A DNA stretch of 46,669 nucleotides from Phycisphaerales bacterium. GTDB lineage: Bacteria > Planctomycetota > Phycisphaerae > Tepidisphaerales > Tepidisphaeraceae. This document shows, piece by piece, positions 8,385 through 45,068 of the stretch (positions are counted from its first letter, which is position 1; each line of letters begins with the position of its first letter). A program made the translations under genes and the position numbers. Location of the stretch: the NCBI GenBank assembly GCA_020847545.1, contig JADLBV010000086.1, positions 1 to 46,669 on the forward strand, read 5' to 3'. The notes beneath the pieces are model-generated. The model saw only the letters and a list, made by a program, of their open reading frames with translations. It did not search any database and had not been told where the DNA came from.

Positions 8385-8421
8385 AGTCCATTGAACGAAC
8401 CAAAAAGGAACCACTTGCTCC

Positions 8422-11118
8422 ATGTTCGCCGTCATCAGCCAGCAACAGACCAAACCCCTCGCCGCGGTTGCACGAAAGCTCCGTCGGGGCGTCTGGGCGT
8501 TGGCCGATCAGATGCTGCTGAGCGGCAGCAACTTCATCACCATGGTGCTGGTGGCGCGCGGCCTGACGCGATTTGAATTCGGCGAGTTTACGCTCATTTA
8601 TTCGGTGCTGCTTTTCACCAATCTCGGACAGGCGACGCTGATTACCCAGCCGCACAACGTGCTGGCGTCAACGCGGGGTGGGGATGATTACCGCCGATTC
8701 ACTTCCGCCTCAGGCGCGGGGCAAATGGTGTTTGTACTCCTCGTGGCGCTGCTGACGCTGGTCGCCGCGGGGGTGGGATGGTCGCTGGGGTGGTCGGCCG
8801 CCGGGTTGCTGGCGGCATTGGCCCCCTGCATCATCGCGTGGCAGTCGCAGGAATTTGTCCGCCGGGTGCTTTATACCGAAGGTCGCACCGCCGCCGCGTT
8901 TTGCAATGACCTGCTCAGTTATGGCGCTCAGGCGTTGATCATCGGCCTGCTCTGGCATGCGGAGGAACTGACCCCACTGCGGGCGTTGTATGTTCTGGCC
9001 GCCACTTCGGCCTTTGCAGCGTTGGTGGGGTTGTGGCAGATTCGCAAAAGTCTGGCCCGCGATTGGAAATGGTCATCCCTGTGGGAAAATTGGAACTTCG
9101 GCAAATGGTTGCTGGGGGCCGAGATGCTCCAGTGGCTCTCCTCGGTTCAATGGTATTTGTTCATCGCCGCCGCCATGTTGGGTGTGACCGCCACCGCCAT
9201 GCTCAAGGCCGCCGCGGTGATCTTCGGCCCAACCCGCGTGCTGATTTCATTCCTGGACACTATCCTGCCGATACGGTTTTCCAAATCACTCGCCCACGGC
9301 GGGCCGGAGGCGATGAATCGCCAGTATCGATTAACGTTTCTACTGGTGACACCGATGCTGGCGGCCTATTGCGGGCTGGTGGCCTTGTTTGCCGGGCCGT
9401 TGTTGCGGATCACCTATGGCAGGCAATATGCCGATGACGCCGCGATTTTGGCGTTGTACGCGATGGCGGTCTTTCCCGCCTATGTGTCGCGAGTCACCTA
9501 TGCCGCGCTGGCGGCCCGGCGGCAGACCAAATACATCTTCATGGCCTATGTCTATACCGCCATGTTCACGGTGGGGCTGGGGTGGGCGCTGCTGCACTGG
9601 ATGGGCGTCAATGGTACATTTGTTGGTCTGACATTGACGGCGTTGATGGTCAACTGCCATTTCTGGATGACCTATCGACGCCGCCGCCATGAAAACAACC
9701 CGTCGGCACAATTGGCCGGCGAATCAATCAAAACCAAGTCCGAAGGAGAAGTCATGGAACACACCAACAACGGCTCAGCGCCCGCCGATTTTGGCGAACG
9801 CCCGGCCGCGCCCACCGCCGCGGTCGCGGTGCTGCGGTTTTTTGAACTGCTCGAACGCCACGGCGTGCCGTATTGCATCCTCGACAGCTATGAAGGGATC
9901 GGCAAACAGGCGCCATCGGGCGACATCGACTGCGTGATCCCCGCATCCTATCTGCCGCGACGATTGGCGGCGCTGGTCGGCGCCAATCGCAATTTCATCG
10001 GGGCCGACCTGGTTCAATGGCACGATTCCAACTACATCGTGCTGGCCTCGCAGGATGAATCGGGCAAGCCCTGGTTTGTGCGCATCGATGTTCATGCCGA
10101 CTACAACCGCGACGACCGTACGTTTTATTTCGGCGAGGAGGTTCTCTCCAGCCGTCAGCAGCACAACTCACTGTGGGTTCCCGCCGCCGGCCTTGAATTC
10201 GGGTGCTATCTGGTCAAAAAGGTCGCCAAAAATGCCCTGAACGAAGAGCAGGCCCGGCGGCTGAGCGATCTGTATCGAAGCAATCCGCAGGCCTGTCGTC
10301 AGCAGGTGGATCGATTCTGGAACGGCAGCGGCAAATTGATCACCGAGGCCGCCGACACCGGCGATTGGAGTCAGGTCATCAGCAATCTGCCCCGACTCCG
10401 CTCCGAAATGTTATTGCGGAGGCGTTCGCGGTTTTCCACGCGGTTGGGTGAATTTGGCCGAAAGATTCGCCGGTGGATTCGACCTCACAGCGGCCTGCAT
10501 GTGGTGTTGCTCGGCCCCGATGGCGTCGGTAAATCCACCGTGCAGGATGCGGTTGAACAGGATTTGGCCCCCGCGTTTGGCGGGCGAATCTCCACCCGCA
10601 CATTCGCCCCCGGTTTGCTGGGCATGCGCCACATCAAGCCGGGCCAGCCGCACGGCCTGCCGCCGCGATCGATGCCGGCGGCCTACGCCAAAGCCGTCTA
10701 CTGGGGGATTTATTACAGCATCGGTTATTACTTTACCGTCTGGCCCGATCTGGCACGGTCGCGGATGGCGCTCAATCACCGTTATTTCGTCGATTCCATC
10801 GCCGATCCGAAGCGCTATCGTTACAAAGGCCCCATCTGGCTCCTGAAGCTGGTCTGGAAGGTGGCCGTCAAGCCGGATGTCATCATCCTGCTGGACGCCC
10901 CGGCCGAGGTGGTGCAGGCGCGGAAAAAGGAAGTCCCCTTCGAGGAGACCGCCCGCCAGCGCGGCGCGTATCGCTCGCTGGTTGAACCGATGCGCAACGG
11001 CCATGTCGTCGATGCCACCCAACCGGCCGACAAGGTCGTCTCGGATGTGGAAAAGATCATCCTCGATCACCTGGCAGTCCGCACGGCCCGTCGATTTGGC
11101 CTGAAAGGCGCCACATGA
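8422..11118 (+). CDS. Flippase fused to nucleotidyltransferase-like/P-loop kinase
   Basis: An 898-residue single frame holding two proteins. Residues 1 to about 430 are a polytopic MATE/Wzx-type polysaccharide flippase (LSGSNFITMVLVARGLTRFEFGEFTL near the start, about 12-14 hydrophobic segments). From residue 445 the protein is soluble. A nucleotidyltransferase-like domain (GDIDCVIPA and FVRIDVHADY carry the metal-binding Asp pattern) is followed by a thymidylate-kinase-like P-loop domain with Walker A GPDGVGKST near residue 700. No stop separates the halves, yet ATG codon 445 has its own strong ribosome-binding site. A stop-codon loss that fused two adjacent genes is the simplest reading, and both fused and free kinase may be made. 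The kinase substrate is unknown. It overlaps the next gene by ATGA. Confidence 0.85.
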   Translation: MFAVISQQQTKPLAAVARKLRRGVWALADQMLLSGSNFITMVLVARGLTRFEFGEFTLIYSVLLFTNLGQATLITQPHNVLASTRGGDDYRRFTSASGAGQMVFVLLVALLTLVAAGVGWSLGWSAAGLLAALAPCIIAWQSQEFVRRVLYTEGRTAAAFCNDLLSYGAQALIIGLLWHAEELTPLRALYVLAATSAFAALVGLWQIRKSLARDWKWSSLWENWNFGKWLLGAEMLQWLSSVQWYLFIAAAMLGVTATAMLKAAAVIFGPTRVLISFLDTILPIRFSKSLAHGGPEAMNRQYRLTFLLVTPMLAAYCGLVALFAGPLLRITYGRQYADDAAILALYAMAVFPAYVSRVTYAALAARRQTKYIFMAYVYTAMFTVGLGWALLHWMGVNGTFVGLTLTALMVNCHFWMTYRRRRHENNPSAQLAGESIKTKSEGEVMEHTNNGSAPADFGERPAAPTAAVAVLRFFELLERHGVPYCILDSYEGIGKQAPSGDIDCVIPASYLPRRLAALVGANRNFIGADLVQWHDSNYIVLASQDESGKPWFVRIDVHADYNRDDRTFYFGEEVLSSRQQHNSLWVPAAGLEFGCYLVKKVAKNALNEEQARRLSDLYRSNPQACRQQVDRFWNGSGKLITEAADTGDWSQVISNLPRLRSEMLLRRRSRFSTRLGEFGRKIRRWIRPHSGLHVVLLGPDGVGKSTVQDAVEQDLAPAFGGRISTRTFAPGLLGMRHIKPGQPHGLPPRSMPAAYAKAVYWGIYYSIGYYFTVWPDLARSRMALNHRYFVDSIADPKRYRYKGPIWLLKLVWKVAVKPDVIILLDAPAEVVQARKKEVPFEETARQRGAYRSLVEPMRNGHVVDATQPADKVVSDVEKIILDHLAVRTARRFGLKGAT
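9743..9756 (+). promoter_or_regulatory. Internal ribosome-binding site and start inside the flippase-kinase frame
   Basis: AAGGAG (9743-9748) sits 5 bases before an in-frame ATG (9754-9756), codon 445, exactly at the join between the membrane half and the soluble half. It would give a 454-residue free kinase protein. That it functions is inference. Confidence 0.6.
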
Positions 11119-12485
11119 CGCTCCCGCCCGCACTGACCTGGGCCTACCTGTTCGCGCCTGGCGCGGCCTTTGATTGCAAACAAGGTCCCGCATGGCTCGT
11201 TCAGGCCATTGCCAATCAGCCCAGGAATGCGGGCGATCCGATTCCGGTCATCTGTGGCGGGGAATCGAATCAAATGCCCGATTTGTCGGCCGCCCCCGCT
11301 CTGGTGGCGATCAATTGTCCAAAACTTTCCGAATCCACCCTTGGCCGGCAGGGTTTTGAATATGTTCGTCGATTCGCGGTGATTCCAAACCTGCAACATG
11401 CCCGCTGGTTTATCCCGCTGGACAATGCGGCCGTCGCCTCCGATGGATTTGCGCTCTACAAGCCTTCCAAACCCCTGTCGCGCTTCAAACATATGGCGGC
11501 CCGCCTCGCCGCCCGCGTGAATCTGCCCGGCTGGTATCAGGATCAGATTTGCATCGCACAGCGCAAGGCTCCGAAACTATATACGGTATTAAGCAATCTA
11601 TTTGACGGTCGGCCGGTTCGCATGGCGATCTCGGCCGGCGCACCCGAACCTTCGCGCAACCGCAAGCCTTCGATCATGATCTTCGACCCACAGGGTCAGG
11701 TGCTGGGATTTGCCAAACTTGGCCGCGAACCATCGGTGCGGCATCTGTTGCAGCACGAGGCAAAATTGCTTCGGGCATTGGCCGAGGTCAATGCGGATAC
11801 GCCGCGACTTTTATTTGCCGACGAGGTTCAGGGTTCGTTGCTGATGGTTCAAAGCCCGCTGAGTGGTCGATCCAGCAAGGCTAAATTGTCGGACGCCCAT
11901 CTGAATTTTCTGACCACGCTCCAGCGGCAGGAGCGCAAACCGGCCACGCAGGCCGACATGGTCCGCGAATTACCATCGCGATTGAGTGCGCTGAAAGTCC
12001 CGCATGACGATTTGGACGGGGCATTGGATGATATTTTGCCGGTGTTGGAGCGGATGACCATCCCCGCAACAATTGTTCATGGCGATTTTGGGCCGTGGAA
12101 TTTGCGCGCCAATGGCGGGCGGATTTTCGCGTATGACTGGGAGTATGGCCAGGTCGATGGCCTGCCGATGATCGACCAGTTTCACCACGTTCTATTTTGT
12201 GGATATCTGTTTTATCGATGGGACAGCCGACAGGGGTTTCGACATCTGCTGGAATTGTCCGCCTCGCGGCCACAGGGGTACACCCCGCGTCAGGCCCGCG
12301 CCTTGGCCACCATCTATCTGCTGGACATGCTCGCGAGATTGCTGGGTGAAGATTATGACCCGGCCGACCCGATGGTTGTCTGGTTCAGGGATATTCTGAC
12401 TCAACTGACCCCCATGGGGCGTTGGCCGGAGGGGGACCGGGAGTCGGTCTCGTGTGAACTGGAAAAGACGGGGGCGGGAACATGA
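11115..12485 (+). CDS. Aminoglycoside-phosphotransferase-like kinase in exopolysaccharide operon
   Basis: A 456-residue soluble protein. The C-terminal half has the APH/choline-kinase catalytic loop HGDFGPWN (His322, Asp324, Asn329) and a metal-binding DWE (Asp341). The N-terminal 200 residues are of unknown fold and lack a membrane segment. In polysaccharide clusters such kinases probably phosphorylate a sugar, polyol or choline-like substituent rather than an antibiotic, though the substrate here is unknown. It overlaps both neighbours by ATGA and so is co-translated with the fused flippase-kinase and the next glycosyltransferase. Its nearness to another small-molecule kinase suggests two phosphorylation steps in making a decorated sugar. 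Confidence 0.8.
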   Translation: MTLPPALTWAYLFAPGAAFDCKQGPAWLVQAIANQPRNAGDPIPVICGGESNQMPDLSAAPALVAINCPKLSESTLGRQGFEYVRRFAVIPNLQHARWFIPLDNAAVASDGFALYKPSKPLSRFKHMAARLAARVNLPGWYQDQICIAQRKAPKLYTVLSNLFDGRPVRMAISAGAPEPSRNRKPSIMIFDPQGQVLGFAKLGREPSVRHLLQHEAKLLRALAEVNADTPRLLFADEVQGSLLMVQSPLSGRSSKAKLSDAHLNFLTTLQRQERKPATQADMVRELPSRLSALKVPHDDLDGALDDILPVLERMTIPATIVHGDFGPWNLRANGGRIFAYDWEYGQVDGLPMIDQFHHVLFCGYLFYRWDSRQGFRHLLELSASRPQGYTPRQARALATIYLLDMLARLLGEDYDPADPMVVWFRDILTQLTPMGRWPEGDRESVSCELEKTGAGT

Positions 12486-13705
12486 CCAGCCAGGCGATAT
12501 TATTGATGCCCATGCCGACGAGCGCATTGCCCAAAAAAGCATCCGTGGTGGTCTTGACCATGATGCGGCCGGCCGGCAATACGGGCGTGCAAACCCACAC
12601 TCGGGTGTTGTTGGATGGGCTTGCCGAACGAGGGATTGACGCACCCCTGATTACCCCCTTTTCCGGTAGGAAATGGTGGAAAGGCGTCTTTGCCATTCGT
12701 CGGCTGGTGCTGGATTTTGTGAATCGCAACTGGGCGCTGCGCTGGTATCGGCCCTGGCATTTTGTCGCGGTGAAACAGGGTTTTTTAAGCCATGCCAGAT
12801 CTCAGCCGGTGACGCATGTGGTGGCGACCTGTCCATTGAGCGCGCGGGCGGCATTGGAAGTTCGCCGGCAGTTGGGGCGTGATTTTGAAGTTTCGATGGT
12901 TTGCCATTTTGCCTACAGCCACGCCCGCGAGGCGCTGGACAATGGGCAGTTGAACGACCCCAATACCGCCGGCCGGATCGAACAACAGGAGGCGGATGTT
13001 TTTCAGGCCGTGGACCGGGTCATTTATGTCTCCAATTCCGCACGCAAGTCGTTGGAAGAGGCGCGGAACATCAGGCCAAAGCGGTCGGTGGTGATCTGGA
13101 ACGGCCTTGCCGATGACAACCGGCCGGCGGCGGTTGATCGACGGTCTTTGGGATTGACGGATCAGGATTTGGTTTTATTGATGGTCGGTTCGCTGGAGCG
13201 TCGAAAAAACCAGATGGCGCTGGTCGATCTGTTCGCGCGGATCGCCAAGGAATTTGATCATGCCAAACTGGTGCTGGTGGGAGAGGGGCCGGATCGGGCC
13301 GCGCTGCGTCGGCGGGCGCATCAACTGGGGATCGAACATCGCGTGAAACTGCTCGGCCAGCGCGGCGATGTGCCGGCGCTGCTGGCGATGTGTGATTTGT
13401 ATATTCATTATTCACTGGTGGAATCCTTCGGGTTGGCCTTGCTGGAATCGGCGCGGGCGGGGGTGGCATCGGCGGCGTTGCCATCGGGGGGTGTGCCGGA
13501 GGTTCAGGCGATTTTACAGGGTGGTGTGCTGCTGCATCCGAGCGATGAAAATGCTTCGATGCAGATTCTTCGGCCGGTTTTGGGCGATGCGGCATTGCGG
13601 GCGGACCTGGGTCGGCGTGGGCGGGAACATTTTCAACGGTTTTTCACCCGCGAGTCGATGGTGGAATCGTATCTGCGTGAATTGGGACTTGTCGCGGCGG
13701 AATAA
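12482..13705 (+). CDS. Glycosyltransferase family 4 (GT-B fold)
   Basis: A 407-residue cytoplasmic glycosyltransferase. The N-terminal Rossmann half shows RPAGNTGVQTHTR, the Gly-rich loop typical of GT4 acceptor-side binding. The C-terminal half contains LMVGSLERRKNQ, LVLVGEGPDRAAL and VESFGLALLESARAG, the E-x7-E nucleotide-sugar motif. It adds one sugar to the lipid-linked repeat unit; donor and linkage cannot be read from sequence. ATGA overlap with the kinase upstream and TAATG overlap with the polymerase downstream place it firmly in the operon. Confidence 0.9.
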   Translation: MTSQAILLMPMPTSALPKKASVVVLTMMRPAGNTGVQTHTRVLLDGLAERGIDAPLITPFSGRKWWKGVFAIRRLVLDFVNRNWALRWYRPWHFVAVKQGFLSHARSQPVTHVVATCPLSARAALEVRRQLGRDFEVSMVCHFAYSHAREALDNGQLNDPNTAGRIEQQEADVFQAVDRVIYVSNSARKSLEEARNIRPKRSVVIWNGLADDNRPAAVDRRSLGLTDQDLVLLMVGSLERRKNQMALVDLFARIAKEFDHAKLVLVGEGPDRAALRRRAHQLGIEHRVKLLGQRGDVPALLAMCDLYIHYSLVESFGLALLESARAGVASAALPSGGVPEVQAILQGGVLLHPSDENASMQILRPVLGDAALRADLGRRGREHFQRFFTRESMVESYLRELGLVAAE

Positions 13706-15090
13706 TGCGAGGAATTGAACTGCAAAAATTCTGGTTGCGCGCCTTGGTGGTGTTGCTGGGGGGATATCTGGCGCTGGACAAAGGGTTTGCGTACCTTGGG
13801 GCCGGGCCGGTGTATGTGGGCGAGATTGTGCTGGGATTGGGTGTGATGGCGGTGCTGGTTGGCGGCGGGATCAAGCTGATCAAGGATCAGGCGGTTGTTT
13901 GGATCTGGGGATTGCTGGCGGTCGATGGGCTGATTTGCACGCTTCCATATCTGAAACAATACGGCATTTTGTCGTTGCGCGATGCGACGTTGTGGGGTTA
14001 TGGGTTGTACGCGTTGATGACGGCGATCTGTCTGCTGCATTGCGGGTGGGTGGTGAAGGCGGTGAAGTTGTATGGGCGGTTGCTGCCGGCCGTGCTGATG
14101 TGGCTGCCGGCGGGGTATTTGCTGCAACGGGTGTTGGGGGAGGCGATTCCCAATATTCCGGGGACGAATGAACGGCTGATACAGTTGAAACCGGGCGACA
14201 CGGCCGTTCATCTGGCCGGGGCGGCGGCGTTCATGGCATTGGGGCTGCATCAGGTATTGCGGCCGAAAATGGGCGGTTTTCAACGACTGATGCGCGACTG
14301 GTGGTGGTGGATCATCTGGTCGGTGGGTGTGGTGATGGCCGCCTCCGCCAATCGGGGGGGGATGCTGTCGATCTTCGCCGCGGCGGGCGTGGTGATGGCA
14401 TTGCGGCCGCGCAGCGCCGGGCATTGGGGCAAGGCGGCGGCGCTGGTGCTGATGGGGATCTGCGTCGCGATTTTCATTGATTTGAAAATCGAGATGAATC
14501 GCCGTGAAGTGTCGGCCCAGCAATTGATCTCCAACGTGACGAGTATTTTTGAGAAGTCCAACCGGGGGGACCTGGATGATACGAAGCAATGGCGGTTGAA
14601 CTGGTGGAATGAGATCATCGACTACACCTTCGGCGGAAAATATTTCTGGACCGGCAAGGGGTATGGCGTGAATCTGGCGCTGGATGATGGGTTTCTGGGG
14701 GGCGAGAAGGGGGCGCCGCTGCGCAGTCCGCACAGCGCGCACATGACGATTCTGGCAAGGTCGGGTGTGCCGGGGTTGGTGCTGTGGGCGCTGTTGCAGT
14801 TGACGTTCGCGGCCGGGATGCTGCATGGAAATTGGCGGGCGCGCAAGGCCGGGCAGGAATGGTGGGCCAGGGTCGATGCGTGGGTGCTGGCGTATTGGAT
14901 CGCCTTTAACGTCAACGCGAGTTTCGATGTATATCTGGAAGGCCCGCAGGCGGGAATCTGGTTCTGGTCCTGGATCGGCTTCGGCATGGCCGTCCTGGCG
15001 GCGCAGAAATGGGATTTGAAGCATCAAAAGATCGAACGGCGAAAAGAGGTTGAAGTTGCGCGTCGCGAGATGGAGATGGTTGGATCGTAG
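13705..15090 (+). CDS. O-antigen ligase/polymerase family membrane protein (Wzy-like)
   Basis: A 461-residue polytopic membrane protein with roughly 10-12 hydrophobic segments and a large extracytoplasmic loop (about residues 265-340) before SPHSAHMTILARSGVPG. An H-containing motif of this kind is typical of the O-antigen ligase/Wzy superfamily. In this operon it probably polymerises the undecaprenyl-linked repeat units after flipping. The family label covers both ligases and polymerases; polymerase is preferred because a Wzx-type flippase and Wzc-like co-polymerase are present. It starts with TAATG overlap and ends 6 bases before the next gene. Confidence 0.85.
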   Translation: MRGIELQKFWLRALVVLLGGYLALDKGFAYLGAGPVYVGEIVLGLGVMAVLVGGGIKLIKDQAVVWIWGLLAVDGLICTLPYLKQYGILSLRDATLWGYGLYALMTAICLLHCGWVVKAVKLYGRLLPAVLMWLPAGYLLQRVLGEAIPNIPGTNERLIQLKPGDTAVHLAGAAAFMALGLHQVLRPKMGGFQRLMRDWWWWIIWSVGVVMAASANRGGMLSIFAAAGVVMALRPRSAGHWGKAAALVLMGICVAIFIDLKIEMNRREVSAQQLISNVTSIFEKSNRGDLDDTKQWRLNWWNEIIDYTFGGKYFWTGKGYGVNLALDDGFLGGEKGAPLRSPHSAHMTILARSGVPGLVLWALLQLTFAAGMLHGNWRARKAGQEWWARVDAWVLAYWIAFNVNASFDVYLEGPQAGIWFWSWIGFGMAVLAAQKWDLKHQKIERRKEVEVARREMEMVGS

Positions 15091-35415: not shown

Positions 35416-36522
35416 ATGAGTTACGAAGGTGCTTCAACTGTTCTGTCTGAATTAAAGCTGGATACATCCAGTTCGGAGCGGCTTCATCTTCAGCTTCAAC
35501 GTCAGATTCGGGAGAAGATTCAGGCCCATCGGCTGCCGCCGGGGGAAAAGCTGCCGACGAACCATGAGATTTCGGCCACGTTGAGCGTCAGTTATGAGAC
35601 CGTCCAGCGTGCCATGAAGGCGTTGGCGGATCGCGGGTTGGTGGTGCGGCACAAGAGCAAGGGGACATTCGTCCGCAAGGCGGTGATGCCGCGGGTGGTG
35701 GCGGTTTATTGCACCGATTCGGTTTTTGATCCCAAAGCATCCCCGTTTTCATCATTGATGGCCCATCATTTGTCGAACCTGCTGCATGAGGATGCGCGGG
35801 ACATGCGTGTGCATTACGCGCCGGAGCCTTGGGGGAACAAGACCAAAGGTTATGCCGACATGCGTCGGGACCTGGAGGAACGGCGGGTGGCTGGGGTTAT
35901 TACGCTCAACCGGATGCCGCGTGAACTGGTTGATCTGGCGTATGCCATGTCGATCCCGGTGGTGGGCGTGACGGTTCCCCATGCGGCGGACAATGTGGTC
36001 TGGGTGGATTATGTGGATTTTACCCATCGCGCGATCAGGCGAATGGTGAAGGAGGGTTGTCGTCGGGTGGTGTTGATTGGGTATTCGCTCGACATCGAAG
36101 GGACTCATCTTGAGGATTTGTTCAAAATCGCCGAGGCAAATGGATTGAAGGTGGTTGCGGAGGATGTGAAGTGTCCCATTGGGGATGACTGGATCGAGAG
36201 GGGGTTGCAGATGGGGCGGCAACTGGACCTGTCGAAATACGATGGCGCGATCGTGGCGGATGACATCATCGCGGTGGGTTTCACCCGCGCCTTGGCACGA
36301 AGGGGTGTGCGCGTGCCGGAGGATCTGCGGGTGATCACGATGTGGAACCGGGGAAGCCCGCTTGCGTTGGCGCTGCCGGCGGTTCGGTTTGATGTGAACA
36401 TCGAGGAGATGGCGCGGCAAAGCGTGCGGATGCTGGATCAGATGATTGAAGGCCGGGCGGTCGTTCTGCCGCGGTTGTTGTTGAAATTGGAAGAATCCCT
36501 GGAGCATGTGGAACACATTTAG
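35416..36522 (+). CDS. GntR/LacI hybrid transcription regulator
   Basis: A 368-residue regulator. A GntR winged helix is at about residues 18-88 (LHLQLQRQIREKIQAHRLPPGEKLPTNHEIS..., RAMKALADRGLVVRHKSKGTFVRK). Residues 95-368 form a LacI/periplasmic-binding-like sugar sensor (PRVVAVYC, RRVVLIGYS, DGAIVADDIIAVGFTRALARRGVRVPEDLRVI). This domain pairing is typical of AraR-type sugar-responsive regulators. It precedes the glycan-use genes in the same direction and most likely controls them with a sugar as signal. The effector is unknown. Confidence 0.88.
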   Translation: MSYEGASTVLSELKLDTSSSERLHLQLQRQIREKIQAHRLPPGEKLPTNHEISATLSVSYETVQRAMKALADRGLVVRHKSKGTFVRKAVMPRVVAVYCTDSVFDPKASPFSSLMAHHLSNLLHEDARDMRVHYAPEPWGNKTKGYADMRRDLEERRVAGVITLNRMPRELVDLAYAMSIPVVGVTVPHAADNVVWVDYVDFTHRAIRRMVKEGCRRVVLIGYSLDIEGTHLEDLFKIAEANGLKVVAEDVKCPIGDDWIERGLQMGRQLDLSKYDGAIVADDIIAVGFTRALARRGVRVPEDLRVITMWNRGSPLALALPAVRFDVNIEEMARQSVRMLDQMIEGRAVVLPRLLLKLEESLEHVEHI

Positions 36523-36598: not shown

Positions 36599-37396
36599 AT
36601 GTCTGTGTTCAAGTTGTCAGTCGCTGCCGCGGCATCCGGCGTTTTGATGCTAACGGGTTTGGCACAGGTGGCGGATGCCGCCTATATCGTCGGCCCGGAT
36701 GGTTTTGATGTGCCGCCATACACCCTGAATGCCGCGGTTGGCGGCCAGCAAGGGTGGGTGGAAGATGCACTATCAATAACATCGATCAAAGACACGGGTA
36801 ATGCAAGCCATGGGACGGCCATTTACATCGATAACGATAATGGCGGTAACAAAAGCAGGGTGCACTCATTTTTTCCCGCGCACGACCAGTCTCAGATATT
36901 GCGGGTAAAGTTTGATGTTTATGGGTCGGGTGGCGGTGGCTACTACTTCAACATGCCTGTTGCCGCAATCGGTGATTATTGGGGCTACGGCGGTATCGCG
37001 GCCAGCCTTGAAGGGATGGGTTATGGTGGAGGGGCCGCAGCGAACGCTTTCAGGCTCAATGGCGACAGTTCGCTACTTGTCCCCGGCATCACCAGCAGCC
37101 CTGGCGTCTGGTACACGGTCACCGTGGATTTGTCGTACACCGACAAGACTTACGATATCACGATTACCGATGGCACGAATACCGGAACGAAGACCGGTGT
37201 TCCATTCTGGTCTGGCGCCGGTGCTTTTTCAGGATTGAACGACATCACCTTCCGCACGGCCGATACCCCGAATAATCCGTATGAAAGCGGATACTTCGAC
37301 AATCTCAGTGTCGAGATGGTCGCCGTTCCCGAACCGGCTTCTGTTGCCCTGTTGGGAATGGGATTGAGCGCGCTGGTTCTACGTCGTCGGCGATGA
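36599..37396 (+). CDS. PEP-CTERM sorting-domain protein
   Basis: A 265-residue secreted protein: N-terminal signal peptide (about 1-27, MSVFKLSVAAAASGVLML... with cut near ADA-AY), a beta-rich Gly/Asn-rich body, and a C-terminal sorting tail VPEPASVALLGMGLSALVLRRRR with PEP, membrane segment and Arg cluster. Such tails are cut by exosortases, and PEP-CTERM proteins often accompany exopolysaccharide loci. No exosortase is in the window. The body resembles LamG/CBM-like jelly rolls, with FYFNMPV- and YFDNLSVE-type strands, but I cannot assign a family. RBS AGGAG precedes the ATG. It may bind the glycan handled by the downstream enzymes. Confidence 0.9.
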   Translation: MSVFKLSVAAAASGVLMLTGLAQVADAAYIVGPDGFDVPPYTLNAAVGGQQGWVEDALSITSIKDTGNASHGTAIYIDNDNGGNKSRVHSFFPAHDQSQILRVKFDVYGSGGGGYYFNMPVAAIGDYWGYGGIAASLEGMGYGGGAAANAFRLNGDSSLLVPGITSSPGVWYTVTVDLSYTDKTYDITITDGTNTGTKTGVPFWSGAGAFSGLNDITFRTADTPNNPYESGYFDNLSVEMVAVPEPASVALLGMGLSALVLRRRR

Positions 37397-37484: not shown

Positions 37485-38249
37485 ATGATAAAGAGAGCCT
37501 TTACCCTCGTGGAGTTGCTGGTCGTCATCGGCATCATAGCCCTTTTGATCAGCATTCTGCTGCCGGCGCTGAACCGTGCCCGTCAGGCGGCCTACAGCGT
37601 CGCCTGCCAGAGCAACATGAGGCAGATCGGGCAGGCGATGACGATGTATCAGAATGCCAACAAGGGTTCGTTTCCGATGTGGGACACCCATATGATCGTG
37701 ACGTGGTATCCCAATGTCTTTCGCATCGCCTGGGCGCGGACATTGTGGAACAGCAACTACCTGACCAATGGCAAAGTCTTTCAGTGCGCCGCCAAGCCGC
37801 CCAATGAGGTCGATCTGAACTCGTTTCCGAAGGATTATCAGAATTCCGGCTCACCAACATCAGATGTTGAGGAAGGGCCGTTCGCGTATCCGGATTATGG
37901 GTATAACTACAAATACATAGGGAGCAGTCTTTGGATCTTGCCGCACTATAACGACCCGCGCGACTACGAGCCGGCCAAGGTGTGGAAGGTGAAACAGCCG
38001 ACCGAGACGATTGTGCTGGTTGATTCGTTGGCCAAATGGGTTCCCTGGCGGGGGTATTACATCGTGGAGCCGGAGTCGGTCAACGCGATTTATTACGGGC
38101 CGGATGTGCGGCATCCCGGGCCGAGCGTCAATGTGCTCTGGGCGGATGGGCATGTGACGCCCGTGCGGTGTGATGATCCGAACAACCCCTTCACGGCCGG
38201 CGCGCTGACGGATGGGTTGAACACGCCCAATCACTGGGATTTGAATTAA
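37485..38249 (+). CDS. Type II secretion-like pseudopilin, DUF1559-related
   Basis: A 254-residue protein. The start MIKRAFTLVELLVVIGIIALLISILLP is a type IV prepilin signal: a short basic leader, then F-T-L-V-E with the conserved Glu5 and a hydrophobic helix. The C-terminal RHPGPSVNVLWADGHV matches the H-x9/10-DG motif of planctomycete and verrucomicrobial prepilins, which exist in many copies per genome next to secreted enzymes. The start at 37485 is chosen for GAGGAG 7 bases upstream. In this locus it may take part in a pseudopilus or surface fibre used for glycan uptake; function is unproven. Confidence 0.9.
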   Translation: MIKRAFTLVELLVVIGIIALLISILLPALNRARQAAYSVACQSNMRQIGQAMTMYQNANKGSFPMWDTHMIVTWYPNVFRIAWARTLWNSNYLTNGKVFQCAAKPPNEVDLNSFPKDYQNSGSPTSDVEEGPFAYPDYGYNYKYIGSSLWILPHYNDPRDYEPAKVWKVKQPTETIVLVDSLAKWVPWRGYYIVEPESVNAIYYGPDVRHPGPSVNVLWADGHVTPVRCDDPNNPFTAGALTDGLNTPNHWDLN

Positions 38250-38321: not shown

Positions 38322-38401
38322 GGGGGATTCGGTGATGGATGATCGTATGCGCTGATACCGAAGGTAAATAGTTCCAAAAAAACAACAACGGAGAATTGAT
38401 C

Positions 38402-41400
38402 ATGAAGTTTCGCCCGTGGTGTGGATGGTTGGCGATGGCGGGGATGGTGTCGATGTGTGGCATGGTGATGGCCGCTGAGCCGCAGGTGGTTCAGATCACG
38501 GGCATTTCGCAGGTGTCAGACCCGCCGCCTGCGATCAACGGCGATCTGGAGCGGCTGACCAAGCTGAATGGTTGGACCCAGATCAATTCGGGGGATCATG
38601 TCGTCTTCAAGGCCGACAAATGGAAAAACGTGGATGATCTGTCGGGAAGTGTGGTGGTTGGGTGGGATGCCAACAATCTCTATGTGGCCGCCAAGGTGCG
38701 CGATAATGCGGTGGTGCAGCCCTTGTCGGGGGATATGTTGTGGCAGGGGGATCATCTGATTTTGCTGCTGGATGCGCCCCGGCAGGAGGGGACGCGCGAG
38801 AAGAAGAAGATCATTCAGATGGGTCTTAGCCCCGGCAATCTCAAGGATGGGGCCGGGCGGATCGCGCCGGAGGTGTATCAGTGGACGCCCCAGCCGCGGG
38901 CCGTGACCGAGGCGAAAATCGCGGCCCGTCGAACGGCCGATGGATATCAGCTTGAGACGGCGATTCCGTGGACGGCGCTGGGGGTGGCGGAGGCGCATCG
39001 CGGCATGAGGATTGGTTATGATGTGATGCTCAGCGATTCGGACAGCGAGGCCGATCCGGATCAGGACAAGGTGATGAGCCTGTTGAGCAGTCCGTGGGAT
39101 CTTCGCAATCCCAACCGGCTGGTGGAGGGGATTCTGGCAACGGCCGAGGGGAAGATCGACCGGTCGTTGATCAAGTCCCCCTTTGAATTGATCCAATCGA
39201 ACATCAAGATTCCGCAAAGTTCCAAGGTCAGTATTAACGCCGGAGCGGTTGACAAAGTCCCGGCCAAGGAACTGGTCGTTCATGCCCGCATCGATTTTCA
39301 AACCGTTGCCGGCGGCAATCCGCAGTTGCAGATTCGCGTCAACGGCGAGTTGATGACCTTCGATCGCGTGCGCAATCGGCTGAAGCGCATGAGCCTGGGG
39401 AATCGCGAGCAGGCGACATTCATCAACGGCAACAGCGCCTGGTTCATCCTGTACGCCCCCAACTACAATCCGATCCCGGAATTTTCCGATTACGCAACGC
39501 CGGGGGTGAACCCCTTTGAGCTGCGCTTCGACATCAGCGATGTGTGGAAACCGCAGGGGGGCAACGTCATCGAACTGGAGAACGCCTCAACGGTTGAACA
39601 ACCGATCATCGCCGAGGTGGGCATCAGCCAGCGGTTGTCCGCCAAGATGACCGAACCGGAGCTGAGGCCCGCCCCCACCGGCGAGATACCGACCATTTTG
39701 CCCATCACCAGCGTCAAACCCGATTACACCGCCCGGCAACTGCCCGGCGGGGCGATCGAGGTGGGATTGGGAAGCCATCGCTGGATCGTTGAATCGGCCT
39801 TCTCCACCACGACCCCCGGGTGGGCGCAACTGGTAGCCAAACGGGAGTCTGGCACGCAGTGGAAATCGTTGAAACTCGACGGCCTGCAACTGGTGGGCAC
39901 AACAGGCGAATTTGAACTGCATCGCACCCTCATCCGACACGATGACCATCTTCAGATCATCGACCGCATCACCAACAGATCGGATGGGGATTTGCCGGTG
40001 ATGTTCCAACACCAGACCCGCGTCGACCGCAAGGCCGGTACGCTTTATCTGGGTGGGTTGCCATCCCCACAGCCCGCCATCGCATCCAACAACGGCGCGG
40101 TCCCCACGACGTTGATGATGATGAAGGATCATGGCATCGGGATGGTGGCCGAGGATGATGTCACGCGCGCCCAGTGCGTGAATTTCGCCGACAACGACCT
40201 GATCGGCATCCGCGATGACAACCTGGTCGTCGCCAAGGGCAAAACAGTTGAGTTGGAATATACGATCTACCCGATCGACTCATCGGACCGGTTCGCGTTC
40301 ATCAACCGCGTCCGCCGAAACTGGGATGTCAACTTCACCATCGACGGCAGCGAGGCGATGATCTCATCGTATGGCGAGGTGATGAACACCGAGATGACCG
40401 ATGAGTTGTTGATCGCCAACATTCGCAACCGCAACGCCAAATATGCGATCAACACCATCTGGAATTTTAATTTTGAGGGCCGATCCACCGAATTGACGCC
40501 GGTGAATGTCGGTAAGCAGCAGATGATCGACCGCGTCAAAAAGGTCTGCCCGGACGTGGTGGATGTGGTCTATTTCCACTGCTTCGCCGGTTATCAGGAC
40601 CCGCGCGACTGGGCGCTCTTTCCGGACATTCCGCAATGGGAGAAGCAGACCTTCGCCGCGGATGTGATCATGCGTTCGGATGGCACGGTCGCCGATTATT
40701 CCAATCCCCAGATGCCGCTGTTTTTGCCGACCGAAGGGTCGGCCTGGGGGAGCGCCATGGAAAAACTGCTCGACTATCGCGTCAAGGCAACCGGCACAGA
40801 GGGGTATTTCTGGGATGAGCTGGAATACAGCTCCTACAAATATGATTACAACCCCAATCACTGGGATGGCGTGTCGGGCGACATCGACCGGTCCACCCAC
40901 AAACTGATCCGTAAAATCACCAACGTGACGCTGGCCAGCCAACCCTGGCGGCTGCGCATGGCGGAGAAACTGTTGAAACAGGGGGCGCTGTTGGGCAATG
41001 GCGCCCCGTTGACGCGCAGTTTCGGCAAGGTGCATTTTCCTCGCTTTGTCGAAACGGCCGCCATCACCAACCTGGCCTATTCGCAGCTTTATACGCCGAT
41101 CGCGCTGGGGGATCACCTGGCCGAACGTAACCAGATCGATTGCTATAAAAACATGGTGCGCGGCCTGGATTATGGGGCGGTCTATTACTGGTATCACACC
41201 GCCATCGATGTGACCCACCCCACTTTGACCAGCTACATGTTCCCCATCACGCCGATCAACCTCGGTCACGGGTACATCATCGCCAAGGAGCGCATCCTGA
41301 CCAACACCAGCGGCTATTTCGGCTGGGGGGACAAGAGCGACTTTGACGTGGTGGTCTTCAATGATCGGGGCAACCAGACCGATCAGGTCAAGGTTCCCAA

Positions 41401-41476
41401 GGTTGAGCGCGATGGTAAGATGTTCGCCGAGATCCGCATCCCCGAAGGGTATTCGGTGGCGTTGATTCGACATTGA
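38402..41476 (+). CDS. Secreted putative glycosidase with CBM9-like domain
   Basis: A 1024-residue exported protein; signal peptide about residues 1-25 (GMVSMCGMVMAAEP). The ATG at 38402 follows GGAGA at good spacing; an in-frame TTG at 38396 is less likely. Residues about 35-235 resemble a CBM9/DOMON-type domain (INGDLERL, VVVGWDANNLYVAAKVRDNAV, DHLILLLDA, YQLETAIPWTALG). A beta-sandwich follows (about 260-420), then a mutarotase-like beta region (about 440-600), and a putative TIM barrel (about 640-960) with VVDVVYFHCFAGYQDPRDW and EGYFWDELEYSS (near 800-810), an acidic pair fit for catalysis. No named GH family is recognised. It is likely an outer enzyme acting on a polysaccharide. Confidence 0.75.
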   Translation: MKFRPWCGWLAMAGMVSMCGMVMAAEPQVVQITGISQVSDPPPAINGDLERLTKLNGWTQINSGDHVVFKADKWKNVDDLSGSVVVGWDANNLYVAAKVRDNAVVQPLSGDMLWQGDHLILLLDAPRQEGTREKKKIIQMGLSPGNLKDGAGRIAPEVYQWTPQPRAVTEAKIAARRTADGYQLETAIPWTALGVAEAHRGMRIGYDVMLSDSDSEADPDQDKVMSLLSSPWDLRNPNRLVEGILATAEGKIDRSLIKSPFELIQSNIKIPQSSKVSINAGAVDKVPAKELVVHARIDFQTVAGGNPQLQIRVNGELMTFDRVRNRLKRMSLGNREQATFINGNSAWFILYAPNYNPIPEFSDYATPGVNPFELRFDISDVWKPQGGNVIELENASTVEQPIIAEVGISQRLSAKMTEPELRPAPTGEIPTILPITSVKPDYTARQLPGGAIEVGLGSHRWIVESAFSTTTPGWAQLVAKRESGTQWKSLKLDGLQLVGTTGEFELHRTLIRHDDHLQIIDRITNRSDGDLPVMFQHQTRVDRKAGTLYLGGLPSPQPAIASNNGAVPTTLMMMKDHGIGMVAEDDVTRAQCVNFADNDLIGIRDDNLVVAKGKTVELEYTIYPIDSSDRFAFINRVRRNWDVNFTIDGSEAMISSYGEVMNTEMTDELLIANIRNRNAKYAINTIWNFNFEGRSTELTPVNVGKQQMIDRVKKVCPDVVDVVYFHCFAGYQDPRDWALFPDIPQWEKQTFAADVIMRSDGTVADYSNPQMPLFLPTEGSAWGSAMEKLLDYRVKATGTEGYFWDELEYSSYKYDYNPNHWDGVSGDIDRSTHKLIRKITNVTLASQPWRLRMAEKLLKQGALLGNGAPLTRSFGKVHFPRFVETAAITNLAYSQLYTPIALGDHLAERNQIDCYKNMVRGLDYGAVYYWYHTAIDVTHPTLTSYMFPITPINLGHGYIIAKERILTNTSGYFGWGDKSDFDVVVFNDRGNQTDQVKVPKVERDGKMFAEIRIPEGYSVALIRH

Positions 41477-41511
41477 TGTGGACATTGTGAGAACGGAGCG
41501 GTTTTAGACTC

Positions 41512-43608
41512 ATGGCCGAACAAGTTGAAGTGTTGCGTGATTCGCGTTTTGCGATGGAGATCAACAGGCGCGGATGCGTGGACCGTATCGCGCCGGCGGC
41601 CGCGACGGCCGGGCAGGTTCGGCCGATCGGGGCGATTGCCGATGACAATGCCGGGCGGATTGAAGCGCCGGCCGAGTTTTTTGATCCGGCCGTCCGGGGC
41701 GATTGCGTCATTGAGGATCTGCTGACGCATCAGAACCACAGCTTTCGCCATCATGCGCCGATGACCCGGCCCTGGCGGGCAAATCAGCAATGGGTTGCAA
41801 AAGAGGACCATTGGGAATGGAACCTGACCATCGATGGCTTGGAAGGTGATGAACGGGAATTGCGGGTGACGTTGTCGTTGCCCCATCCGATTTTCCCCGG
41901 CGGGATGGGGTCGGGGCACAGCAAATGGGATTTGTGGCTGCCGACCGGCCAACATTCGCAGGGGGCTGAGTATGGCCTTCGCAAAATCCATTTCAGCCAG
42001 TGTCTGGATGAGAAGACCGATGCGCCCCTGCCACTGGTGACGCTGTTTCATGGCGGGGCGGCCAACCTTGGGTTTTCGTGTTTGTTGCCGCCGGACCAGA
42101 TGTGGTATGCCGATTTTGAGGTTGACCAGAGATACTGGCTGACGCGCATCACCTTTAAGCATCTGGGTTTACAAAAGGGCAAGTCGATCAAACTGCGGCT
42201 ATGGTGCTTCAGCCATGCCGGCGACTGGCGGCCGGCCATGGGGTGGGTACGCGGGCGTTTTCCCGAGCTTCTGGGACCAGTGGAAGGGCAGCAAAAGCTC
42301 GACGGCAACATGGCCTACACCATTCCGATCAACGAAAAGCGCATCGCCGACTGGTCGAACAAGATGCACCTGCGCTGGAATGAGCTGATTCACTGGCGCA
42401 ATTTCGGAGATTATTGTCCCGATGAGCCGTTCAACGCCAGCCATTTCCAGTCCCCCGCCAACCCTCACTGGACGGCCGACAATCTCAGATACGACGACCT
42501 CAACCGCTACATCGACATGTGCCACAAGCACAACGTCAAGGTGATGCCCTATTTCAACATCTCCGAATGCGAATCGGGCATCGCCCATAAGCGTTTCCCC
42601 GAATCGATCGCGAAGTTTTATGACAACCGTGAGATGGTCTGCTGGGTCTATTACGACGGGAAAAATCACAACGTCGTCATGAATGGGGACCCGCAATATC
42701 CATATTTTGATTTTGTGGTGTCGCAATATGAAAAACTGCTCAAGCGTTGTCCCGGCATCGACGGGCTGTTTTTCGATCAGGTCTGCTACGGCTGGATCGA
42801 CACGGCCCATTTCGATGGTGAAACATTTTGGAACAACAAGCCCGCCTACAACCTGGGGAACATGTATGTGCGGGCGTTCAAGGAATTTCGCAGCCGGCTG
42901 CCCCGCCCGCGCATCATCGGCCTGGGCAACGGCATCGTGCGCTGGCAGTTGATGCAATACATTGACGGGGCGATGGCCGAGGGGGATCCGGAAACACTCG
43001 GCCGGTTTTCGCTGATCTGCCCCGAACGCCCGATGGTCTGCCTGGCCGAGGGTGAGAATGCGTTTCAACACGCCCTGTTCCACGGGTCATGGATGCACGT
43101 TTCCCCCTATTATCGTTATCCAACCACCGAGGAACTGCCAACGGATGCGATCAAGCTCTTTGAGATGTATCAGCCGCTGCTGAACTGGCTCGAAGGTCGC
43201 AAGATGGTTTACGAACCCAATCCACTCAAGGTGGAGGCGCATTTCGAGAACGCATACAAATCGTCGCTGCTGAATCTCAACGAAAATGTCCGTGCGAACA
43301 TCTTCCGCACCCCGTGGGGCGACTGGGCCGTCGTGGTGTTGGCGCTGCCCAAGGGGGCGGTCTTGCCCGCGTCAACAGTTCCCCTGACAATCAACGTCAA
43401 CATCCCCGAAGCGGGCAAACTCAAACACGCGGCGGTCTTCAATGTGGAGAACGCCGGGCATACGATCCAAACGCCCGTGCGAAATGAAGATGGATCGGTG
43501 CGGGTGAAAATCCCCAAACATGGCGCGGCGTCGCTGGTCATACTGAGCGACAACATCGAGCGTCTGCGGTCACAATGGCAGTGGAAATCAACGGAAAATC
43601 AGTCATGA
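41512..43608 (+). CDS. Putative TIM-barrel glycosidase, cytoplasmic or unexported
   Basis: A 698-residue protein with no clear signal peptide. The N-terminal 280 residues are beta-rich. From about residue 310 a barrel follows: YIDMCHKHNVKVMPYFN, then PGIDGLFFDQVCYGWIDT (Asp422) and YIDGAMAEGDPETLG (Glu490, Asp492), acid positions like those of alpha-galactosidase-clan enzymes. A C-terminal beta-sandwich (about 575-690) ends the protein. The layout resembles DUF6259/GH36-clan proteins, but the family is not certain. It lies 35 bases behind the CBM9-type protein and overlaps the next gene by ATGA. It probably cleaves an oligosaccharide released by the secreted enzyme. Confidence 0.75.
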   Translation: MAEQVEVLRDSRFAMEINRRGCVDRIAPAAATAGQVRPIGAIADDNAGRIEAPAEFFDPAVRGDCVIEDLLTHQNHSFRHHAPMTRPWRANQQWVAKEDHWEWNLTIDGLEGDERELRVTLSLPHPIFPGGMGSGHSKWDLWLPTGQHSQGAEYGLRKIHFSQCLDEKTDAPLPLVTLFHGGAANLGFSCLLPPDQMWYADFEVDQRYWLTRITFKHLGLQKGKSIKLRLWCFSHAGDWRPAMGWVRGRFPELLGPVEGQQKLDGNMAYTIPINEKRIADWSNKMHLRWNELIHWRNFGDYCPDEPFNASHFQSPANPHWTADNLRYDDLNRYIDMCHKHNVKVMPYFNISECESGIAHKRFPESIAKFYDNREMVCWVYYDGKNHNVVMNGDPQYPYFDFVVSQYEKLLKRCPGIDGLFFDQVCYGWIDTAHFDGETFWNNKPAYNLGNMYVRAFKEFRSRLPRPRIIGLGNGIVRWQLMQYIDGAMAEGDPETLGRFSLICPERPMVCLAEGENAFQHALFHGSWMHVSPYYRYPTTEELPTDAIKLFEMYQPLLNWLEGRKMVYEPNPLKVEAHFENAYKSSLLNLNENVRANIFRTPWGDWAVVVLALPKGAVLPASTVPLTINVNIPEAGKLKHAAVFNVENAGHTIQTPVRNEDGSVRVKIPKHGAASLVILSDNIERLRSQWQWKSTENQS

Positions 43609-45068
43609 CAGCGATTCAATCAACAATGGAAAAAAAACGGCCTTCGGAATTCGGATTTTCCCCATCGGCTGATGCGGCCGTCAATGTCGCGGCGTTGCAA
43701 CGCGCCCTCGACGGGGGCGGCCGGGTGATCATTGATGTTCCCGGCGTCTATGACCTGAACGCCACGATCATGCTTGATTCCGACACCCAACTGCTGTGCG
43801 CCCCGGGGGTGGTCTTTCGCAAGGTGGCATCCTACTGCAACGTGCTGATCAACCGCGGCGCGCTGACCAAACAGTACAACCGAAACATCACCATCGACGG
43901 GCTGGAAATCTCCGTCAACAACTTTGAGGCCTTCCCGACGCTGGTGTACGGCCTACGCGCCCAGCTCGGTTTCTTCTATGTCAAAAACCTCACATTGCGA
44001 AATTTCACCTGCCTTGACGGGAAGGAAAACCAGTACCTGATTTACATCGTCACCTGGTCGAACCTTCGGATCGAAAACGTCAAACTGGCCGGCGACAAGG
44101 ATGGGATCAAGCTCAACAACGGCCACAACGCCCTGATCGAAAATCTCGACCTGACCACCTACGACGATGGAACCTCCCTGTGCGGGACCGACTACGCATC
44201 GACGCTGCTGGAGGCGGGGGATGTGTACAACGTCACCTATCGCAACGTCATCGACCGACAATACAAGAACATCTTCGGCCGAACCTGCCTGATTTACACC
44301 GGCTCATGGGCCGACTACGCCGATGGCAACGAGTATGGCGCGGGCGATTTTTGCCTGCACCGCGGACGGCTTTATCAATCCACCAACGAGGCCAATTTTG
44401 TGGCCCTCGCCACCCGCCCGCCGGTGCATGAATCGGGCATCGTCACCGGCGAGGACAAGATCGCCTGGCGGTTTGTCCAGTTGTGTGATTTTTATCAAAC
44501 CAACGTCTACAACATCACCTTCGAGAATTGCACGTTTGAAAAATCGGGCAACATCATCGCCAGCTTTATCGTGCCCGCGTGGTATTACAAAAACATCTGC
44601 GGCATCCACCGCAATTTCTATCCTGGCACCGAACCCAATTCGACCTCCTGGAACATCAGCATCAACAATTGTCGTCTTGCCGGCGTCAATCCACAGGTAC
44701 TGGTCAATCTCATGGGAAACATGCGGGATGTTTCGATCAATGGATGCGCCATCACCAACCCGCGCAGCACGCTGATCAACATCGACCACGATTCGGCCAA
44801 CCGGGAATTGATCGCCTCCATCCACAACTGCGCGTTTCCGGCCGGCGGTGTCGCGCCGTTGCCCGAAGACGAGTTGCCGAACCATGAAAAATGCCCCATC
44901 CTCCGTCAGGACATCGACGACACCGGCAAACTGATCGTCGTCCGCAACGACAGCCGGGTGATCTGCAGTGCATCGGGCAATTCAACCCGCCCTGAACCTG
45001 TCGAGGTCTTTCTGTCCGAAGGATCAAAACTGCAATCGGCAACGTGCGATCTGATGTTCAAATCGTAG
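43605..45068 (+). CDS. Right-handed parallel beta-helix protein (GH28/pectate lyase-like)
   Basis: A 487-residue protein starting at the ATG that overlaps the stop of the preceding gene; an in-frame ATG 30 bases earlier has no ribosome-binding site. It opens with NVAALQRALDGGGRVIIDVPGVYDLNATIML, the usual N-cap of pectin-lyase-fold enzymes, followed by rungs such as NITIDGLEIS, NLTLRNFTC, LRIENVKLAGDKDGIKLNN and ALIENLDLTTYDDGTSLCG. The DKDG and DDG acidic groups occur where GH28-like enzymes place catalytic Asp. No signal peptide is seen. Probably a glycan hydrolase, lyase or epimerase; the substrate is unknown. Confidence 0.8.
   Translation: MTAIQSTMEKKRPSEFGFSPSADAAVNVAALQRALDGGGRVIIDVPGVYDLNATIMLDSDTQLLCAPGVVFRKVASYCNVLINRGALTKQYNRNITIDGLEISVNNFEAFPTLVYGLRAQLGFFYVKNLTLRNFTCLDGKENQYLIYIVTWSNLRIENVKLAGDKDGIKLNNGHNALIENLDLTTYDDGTSLCGTDYASTLLEAGDVYNVTYRNVIDRQYKNIFGRTCLIYTGSWADYADGNEYGAGDFCLHRGRLYQSTNEANFVALATRPPVHESGIVTGEDKIAWRFVQLCDFYQTNVYNITFENCTFEKSGNIIASFIVPAWYYKNICGIHRNFYPGTEPNSTSWNISINNCRLAGVNPQVLVNLMGNMRDVSINGCAITNPRSTLINIDHDSANRELIASIHNCAFPAGGVAPLPEDELPNHEKCPILRQDIDDTGKLIVVRNDSRVICSASGNSTRPEPVEVFLSEGSKLQSATCDLMFKS

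Follow-up and report, generated by a model that had tools for sequence, protein, structure and literature searches.

The window analysed here is a stretch of 46,669 nucleotides covering positions 1 to 46,669 (forward strand) of contig JADLBV010000086.1 from the Phycisphaerales bacterium assembly GCA_020847545.1, and our subject is a pair of adjacent open reading frames (ORFs) within it, ORF1 and ORF2, which an earlier note on this DNA had described as two large glycosidase-like proteins without a clear family (Table 1). ORF1 was taken to start at an ATG, with a TTG at 38396 as an alternative start. The genes for a regulator, a PEP-CTERM protein and a pseudopilin lie upstream of ORF1 and share its strand. 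Another genome, assigned to the same genus, also carries the two genes side by side (80% and 82% protein identity), and ORF1 and ORF2 are thus real genes and not chance ORFs. Signal peptides were judged by eye and from hydropathy: one is predicted for ORF1, ORF2 has none and none is evident in ORF3, which agrees with the claim that one of the two proteins is exported and the other lacks an export signal.

Table 1. Positions of the genes, domains and candidate catalytic residues in the window
Feature	Position	Strand	Remarks
ORF1	38402..41476	+	1024 residues; predicted exported protein with CBM9, beta-supersandwich and glycosidase-like barrel
ORF1 predicted signal peptide, about residues 1-27	38402..38482	+	MKFRPWCGWLAMAGMVSMCGMVMAAEP; hydropathy peak 1.87
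ORF1 CBM9 domain, residues 67-225	38600..39076	+	Pfam CBM9_1; PDB 7nwn, Z 18.5
ORF1 mutarotase-like beta-supersandwich, residues 439-627	39716..40282	+	Model blocks mostly at pLDDT 80-92; mutarotase-like domains at Z of about 13
ORF1 predicted barrel region, limits approximate	40283..41287	+	Alternating strands and helices, low confidence; GH36 alignment reaches model residue 842
ORF1 FWDELE, residues 803-808	40808..40825	+	D805 (40814-40816), probable first catalytic acid
ORF1 E884	41051..41053	+	Probable second catalytic acid; aligned with ORF2 D485
ORF2	41512..43608	+	698 residues; glycosidase-like protein without signal peptide
ORF2 D422	42775..42777	+	Probable first catalytic acid; aligned with ORF1 D805
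ORF2 D485	42964..42966	+	Probable second catalytic acid; aligned with ORF1 E884
ORF2 E490	42979..42981	+	Second acid named by the earlier note; 13 of 14 rows have E, the remaining one D
ORF3	43575..45068	+	GH28-like right-handed beta-helix protein, no evident signal peptide; overlaps the end of ORF2
Regulator	35416..36522	+	GntR DNA-binding domain (Pfam E 1.7e-15) and LacI-type sugar-sensing Peripla_BP_3 (E 1.1e-18)
PEP-CTERM secreted protein	36599..37396	+	Pfam PEP-CTERM E 1.3e-5, over cut-off
Pseudopilin with N-methylation motif and DUF1559	37485..38249	+	Pfam SBP_bac_10/DUF1559 E 3e-8; N_methyl E 1e-4; start MIKRAFTLVELLVVIGII

By profile comparison, the families of ORF1 and ORF2 are distant homologues, a kinship that the earlier note had overlooked, as it had the CBM9 domain of ORF1. 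When the alignment of the ORF2 family (14 rows) was compared by hhalign with that of the ORF1 family (12 rows), an E value of 2.6e-6 was obtained at a probability of 89% over 302 columns, and after removal of the window and its closest rows the E value was 7.1e-7. Among the controls, the best of 59 column-shuffled comparisons reached E 0.12 and reversed profiles gave 0.22, 0.27 and 0.46. Nine profiles of other families were also run against the ORF2 profile; a single sequence resembling glycoside hydrolase (GH) family 29 gave 0.0021, the ORF3 beta-helix 0.05 and the seven others 0.12 to 0.71. The aligned positions (ORF2/ORF1) include D422/D805, D435-G436/D822-G823, N473/N866 and D485/E884. Across the 12 rows of the ORF1 family, D805, D822, N866 and E884 are invariant and G823 occurs in 10, and across the 14 rows of the ORF2 family the same holds for D422, D435, G436, N473 and D485, with E490 present in 13.

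Each family therefore has two invariant carboxylates (12/12 and 14/14 rows) whose placement at barrel strand ends is predicted, and the alignments point to D805 with E884 in ORF1, and to D422 with D485 rather than E490 in ORF2, as the likely catalytic pairs. D485 is preferred because it aligns with E884, each of them being invariant in its own family. The acidic motifs singled out earlier, FWDELE in ORF1 and D422 and E490 in ORF2, are where they were said to be, and the named acids are indeed conserved (in ORF1, D805 in 12/12 rows and E806 in 10/12; in ORF2, D422 in 14/14 and E490 in 13/14); of the acid pair proposed for ORF2, D422 is retained and E490 gives way to D485. The same conservation bears on whether ORF1, ORF2 or both are non-catalytic proteins that bind or sense sugars while retaining the fold of an enzyme. 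Pseudo-enzymes are common among expanded paralogues, and ORF1 is present in several copies within one genome. Such a role is nevertheless improbable, given that neither acid of either pair varies in any row of its family.

Whether the two proteins are classified was judged against Pfam and NCBIfam, with the CAZy and dbCAN models lying outside the comparison. The only family of ORF1 above its cut-off is CBM9_1 (47.8 bits against a Pfam cut-off of 23.4, E 2e-12), with fold matches to 7nwn (Z 18.5) and 1i82 (Z 18.0). Its N-terminal domain is thus a CBM9 domain in both Pfam score and fold, and differs from the known ones in its fusion to an unclassified catalytic-type region. In Pfam, no GH36, GH129 or GH31 assignment was found for ORF1, CBM9_1 being alone at E ≤1, and the 12-row family adds two weak and unrelated names. 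For ORF2, GHL10 (PF02638) and GH66 (PF13199) remain below their Pfam gathering scores (16.3 against 27.9 bits and 12.2 against 23.7 bits, respectively), with weak GH66 matches in 3 of the 14 family rows (best E 5.9e-4), and GHL6 (PF14871) gives no match at E ≤1, with matches in two of the 14 rows (best E 3.7e-5). A profile of GHL6 built here from five loci matched the ORF2-family profile at E 1.4e-8 over 101 columns. ORF2 resembles GHL6, GHL10 and GH66 in the strand that bears a DGxFxD-type motif, but differs from them in falling below the GHL10 and GH66 cut-offs and in having no GHL6 match of its own. A row-by-row Pfam scan of both family alignments yielded no catalytic family at cut-off, and neither single sequence matched a PDB sequence. 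Thus, the description of two large proteins without a named catalytic family holds for Pfam and NCBIfam. Three candidate assignments were rejected: GH29 for ORF2 (profile match to 9eu4 at E 0.013, not significant, over 56 positions that exclude D422), the endo-1,3-fucanase 8ya6 for ORF1 (profile match at E 0.57, not significant) and GH66 for ORF2, members of which were found in none of 246 genomes of the phylum at E 1e-10.

Structure prediction, which had been proposed as a check, succeeded in part. The ORF1 model, built from 9 sequences (mean pLDDT 62.7; model residue plus 27 gives the ORF1 residue), is good for CBM9, for a large part of the central beta region and for the supersandwich, and poor for the barrel. 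In this model FWDE ends a strand (model residues 774-778). The glycosidase-like barrels with acids at their strand ends that the earlier note predicted are supported. Beyond CBM9, the best solved match is the GH36 galactosaminidase FpGalactosaminidase (9ayu; Z 16.9, root-mean-square deviation (rmsd) 15.8, 306 residues aligned, model 412-842, weak barrel), followed by the GH129 enzymes NagBb (5wzn; Z 15.4, rmsd 18.0, 331 aligned, weak barrel) and ZgGH129 (5opq; Z 14.2), and the Foldseek list includes GH31, GH36, GH38 and GH97. The ORF1 model appears to be like the GH36 and GH129 structures in its predicted order of beta-supersandwich and then barrel, whereas the ORF1 and ORF2 proteins differ from them in reaching no catalytic Pfam cut-off and the model in its large rmsd and weak barrel. 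This resemblance, together with a comparison made without CAZy models, is what speaks for ORF1 and ORF2 belonging to a numbered CAZy family that has no Pfam or NCBIfam model. We consider this unlikely, since no catalytic cut-off was reached in Pfam or NCBIfam, nor in Pfam for the family rows, and a search of PDB sequences with the family profiles gave nothing significant (best E 0.013 and 0.57).

We regard it as probable that ORF1 and ORF2 represent two branches of one unclassified superfamily of retaining glycoside-hydrolase-like proteins, of the GH31/GH36/GH129 type, within a glycan-use locus; they form a new branch within a known type of enzyme and not a new type. The proposed architecture, in which a (beta/alpha) barrel comes after a beta-supersandwich, would be that of GH31, GH36, GH97 and GH129, and a glycosidic bond would probably be cleaved by the two-acid retaining route; the nucleophile would be D805 or D422, where barrel strand 4 ends, and the acid/base E884 or D485 on a later strand. 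In GH31 and GH36 enzymes, barrel strand 4 ends in the Asp that serves as nucleophile, and a second Asp, two strands further along, serves as acid/base. The order observed here, with a D on the DGxFxD strand, an N on the next strand and a D or E on the strand after, appears to fit this plan. ORF1 would be exported, its CBM9 domain holding a polysaccharide while trimming takes place outside the cytoplasm, and ORF2 probably finishes the oligosaccharides in the cytoplasm with ORF3. The GntR/LacI-type regulator would sense the sugar, and the pseudopilin and PEP-CTERM protein may capture or hold the substrate. The sugar-sensing domain of this regulator and the enzymes encoded at ORF1 paralogue loci count in favour of this reading. 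What the analysis establishes are the genes, their conservation and order and the kinship of the two families; the barrel folds, catalysis, cellular location, sequence of action and the parts played by the pseudopilin and PEP-CTERM protein are inferred. With a candidate acid pair named for each branch, the superfamily is directly testable by expressing the two proteins.

Several points weigh against assigning both proteins to such a superfamily. The hhalign probability of 89% is below 95%, and an earlier comparison of smaller alignments (10 and 7 rows) gave E 0.004 at a probability of 8%; its register at FWDE/FFDQ was identical to that of the later run, and the stronger result followed once relatives had been added to the alignments. 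The long fold matches have rmsd values of 15.8 to 18.4 over both domains and the barrel is mostly of low confidence, while most fold-match rows cover the supersandwich alone, a widespread domain found also in YidC and in mutarotases. The GH36/GH129 match is thus mainly a match of the supersandwich, and for the barrel the fold evidence, taken alone, is weak. The ORF2 model (2 sequences) has a mean pLDDT of 33 and was used for no statement on fold. Finally, no oligosaccharide transporter was identified beside the ORF1-ORF2 pair, and we know of no activity for any member of either family.

The gene partners of ORF1 and ORF2 bear on how the two proteins relate in function. The earlier note had them act in sequence in one pathway, ORF1 first and outside the cell, ORF2 second and inside. 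The two genes stand side by side and point the same way in two genomes of a single genus, to which the adjacency is confined, and the signal peptide on ORF1 and its absence from ORF2 would suit such an order. However, in the examined flanks of 17 ORF1-family loci (some on short contigs) an ORF2-like gene was found at only two, which are orthologous, and at locus L050 an ORF2 homologue occurs with ORF3 and without ORF1 on a contig of 9.6 kb. The claim of adjacency stands, sequential action is weakened by these distributions, and a single pathway of this kind is possible but somewhat doubtful. Taken as a whole, what the earlier note observed is confirmed, and its interpretation is partly supported.

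In each of the three loci whose ORF2 shows 60% identity or more (the window, L084 and L050), ORF3 adjoins ORF2; it lies 3' of ORF2 in the window, in Phycisphaerales bacterium SJ572 and in a genome that belongs to a different family of the class (63% over 401 residues). Since ORF3 follows the close ORF2s and the ORF1-family loci vary, the evidence favours ORF2 and ORF3 as a stable unit, with ORF1 as an exported partner in loci of variable content. The loci of ORF1 paralogues encode GH39, GH78-type rhamnosidase, GH20, GH2-type and DUF4838 proteins; the ORF1 family thus appears to be reused with different enzymes. A pairing of ORF2 with ORF3 throughout the ORF2 family is unsupported, as ORF3 homologues in blastp (E ≤1) are limited to the same three loci. 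ORF3 did not qualify as GH28: its weak NCBIfam match to a rhamnogalacturonidase (E 3.3e-4) scores 19.5 bits against 500, that to the polygalacturonase PglB 17.3 against 600, no Pfam GH28 match was found and the PDB gave no relevant one. At L007 (3-3080), an ORF2-like region is fused to a segment of pectate-lyase/rhamnogalacturonase type (Pfam E 4.1e-7), which hints at a substrate class, and at L057 a beta-helix region is encoded 1.2 kb from an ORF2-like gene; both are no more than suggestive of a link between ORF2 and beta-helix proteins. At L053 (2797-8592), a single protein of 1931 residues is GH123_N-like in one half and ORF1-like in the other.

Members of the ORF2 family were found in 10 of 150 relatives and, with an alignment, in 15 of 294 genomes of the phylum, the window's own genome being counted in both. 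ORF1 matched in 26 of the 150 relatives, mostly in CBM9 alone, and beyond CBM9 in five of the 150 and three of the 294 (own genome counted). With the best five candidates scored per genome, at least five ORF1-family proteins were counted in the window's genome and at least five in the same-genus genome. A scan of 84,980 species genomes, a collection that may omit genomes near the window's, with two ORF1 motifs led to eight confirmed loci: five in SJ572 (apparently the same-genus genome), two in rumen Victivallales (41% identical, full length) and one in a lake Verrucomicrobium (33% identical). Given the homologues in Victivallales and Verrucomicrobium, ORF1 spans phyla of the PVC group. Among the viral contigs scanned, no relative was found. 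Both rumen Victivallales homologues (L088, 8594-11599; L089, 8711-11716) have a pseudopilin directly downstream, so that the module is spread across phyla.

The genes upstream of ORF1 recur at a larger scale. A pseudopilin motif occurs within 5 kb of 13 of the 17 ORF1-family loci, the misses being a contig-end locus, L090, L052 and L053, and a regulator match within 5 kb of 10; near ORF2-like genes of other genomes the pseudopilin motif occurs four times in 263,451 bases. The window's own genome (3.75 Mb) contains 79 N-methylation (pseudopilin-type) starts, 84 PEP-CTERM matches (79 over cut-off) and 60 Peripla_BP_3 matches (57 over cut-off). Within 5 kb, a PEP-CTERM match lies near 51 of the 79 pseudopilins (20% expected from density) and a regulator likewise near 51 (15% expected), both together near 40, and conversely a pseudopilin near 51 of the 60 regulator domains. 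The expected values were estimated from a Poisson model in which contig ends are disregarded, for which reason the true linkage may be higher. In the surroundings of 20 of the 79 pseudopilins, 64 large frames include 14 with Peripla_BP_3, three with DUF4838, three with laminin-G and two with a beta-helix, and none of these four is among the 25 commonest families of 47 control frames (six apparently masked), which are not a random sample since they were drawn from contigs without pseudopilin, PEP-CTERM or regulator features. The locus in the window is one of dozens of cassettes across the genome that consist of a sugar-sensing regulator, a pseudopilin, a PEP-CTERM protein and an enzyme, and we consider the cassette a more interesting lead than the enzyme pair. 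As a further observation, in a genome from another family of the class (L056, 7162-12809) an ORF2-like protein with a signal-peptide-like start is encoded beside a pseudopilin, a GntR/LacI regulator and GH32.

Four published sources bear on the cassette. A review hypothesises dedicated pilin-like "fishing rods" for polysaccharide uptake (PMC12078418). Gold-labelled dextran has been seen on pili-like fibres, in work that calls the planctomycete system for periplasmic uptake of whole polysaccharides uncharacterised (PMC5394234), and functional characterisation of Planctomycetota CAZyme clusters is said to have been lacking previously (PMC11131199). One Verrucomicrobiota genome (Verruconatronum) has 67 pseudopilin homologues, one of them over-expressed on alginate (PMC13274419). 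The many paralogues and the glycan loci are shared with Verruconatronum, where the link is one cluster. The dextran-binding fibres are likewise comparable, although they were described by microscopy without genes. The cassette differs from both in the genome-wide pairing of pseudopilins with regulators and PEP-CTERM genes, and no description of the four-part cassette was found in the literature covered, which leaves out most subscription papers. Going by gene position, our guess at its function, offered tentatively and as less likely than not, is that each glycan-use locus of this lineage might carry its own capture kit: a substrate-specific pseudopilin (as tip or subunit of a fibre that binds polysaccharide), a surface protein of PEP-CTERM type and a regulator that senses the sugar, beside enzymes such as ORF1 and ORF2. 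If so, the 79 pseudopilins would list the genetic parts of the long-sought planctomycete system for polysaccharide uptake. The regulator-pseudopilin pairing provides candidate genes for the "fishing rod" hypothesis, with the neighbouring enzyme hinting at each substrate.

Elsewhere in the window, positions 4918-15090 hold an exopolysaccharide-type cluster with Wzz/kinase, bacterial sugar transferase, glycosyltransferase and Wzy-like ligase genes.

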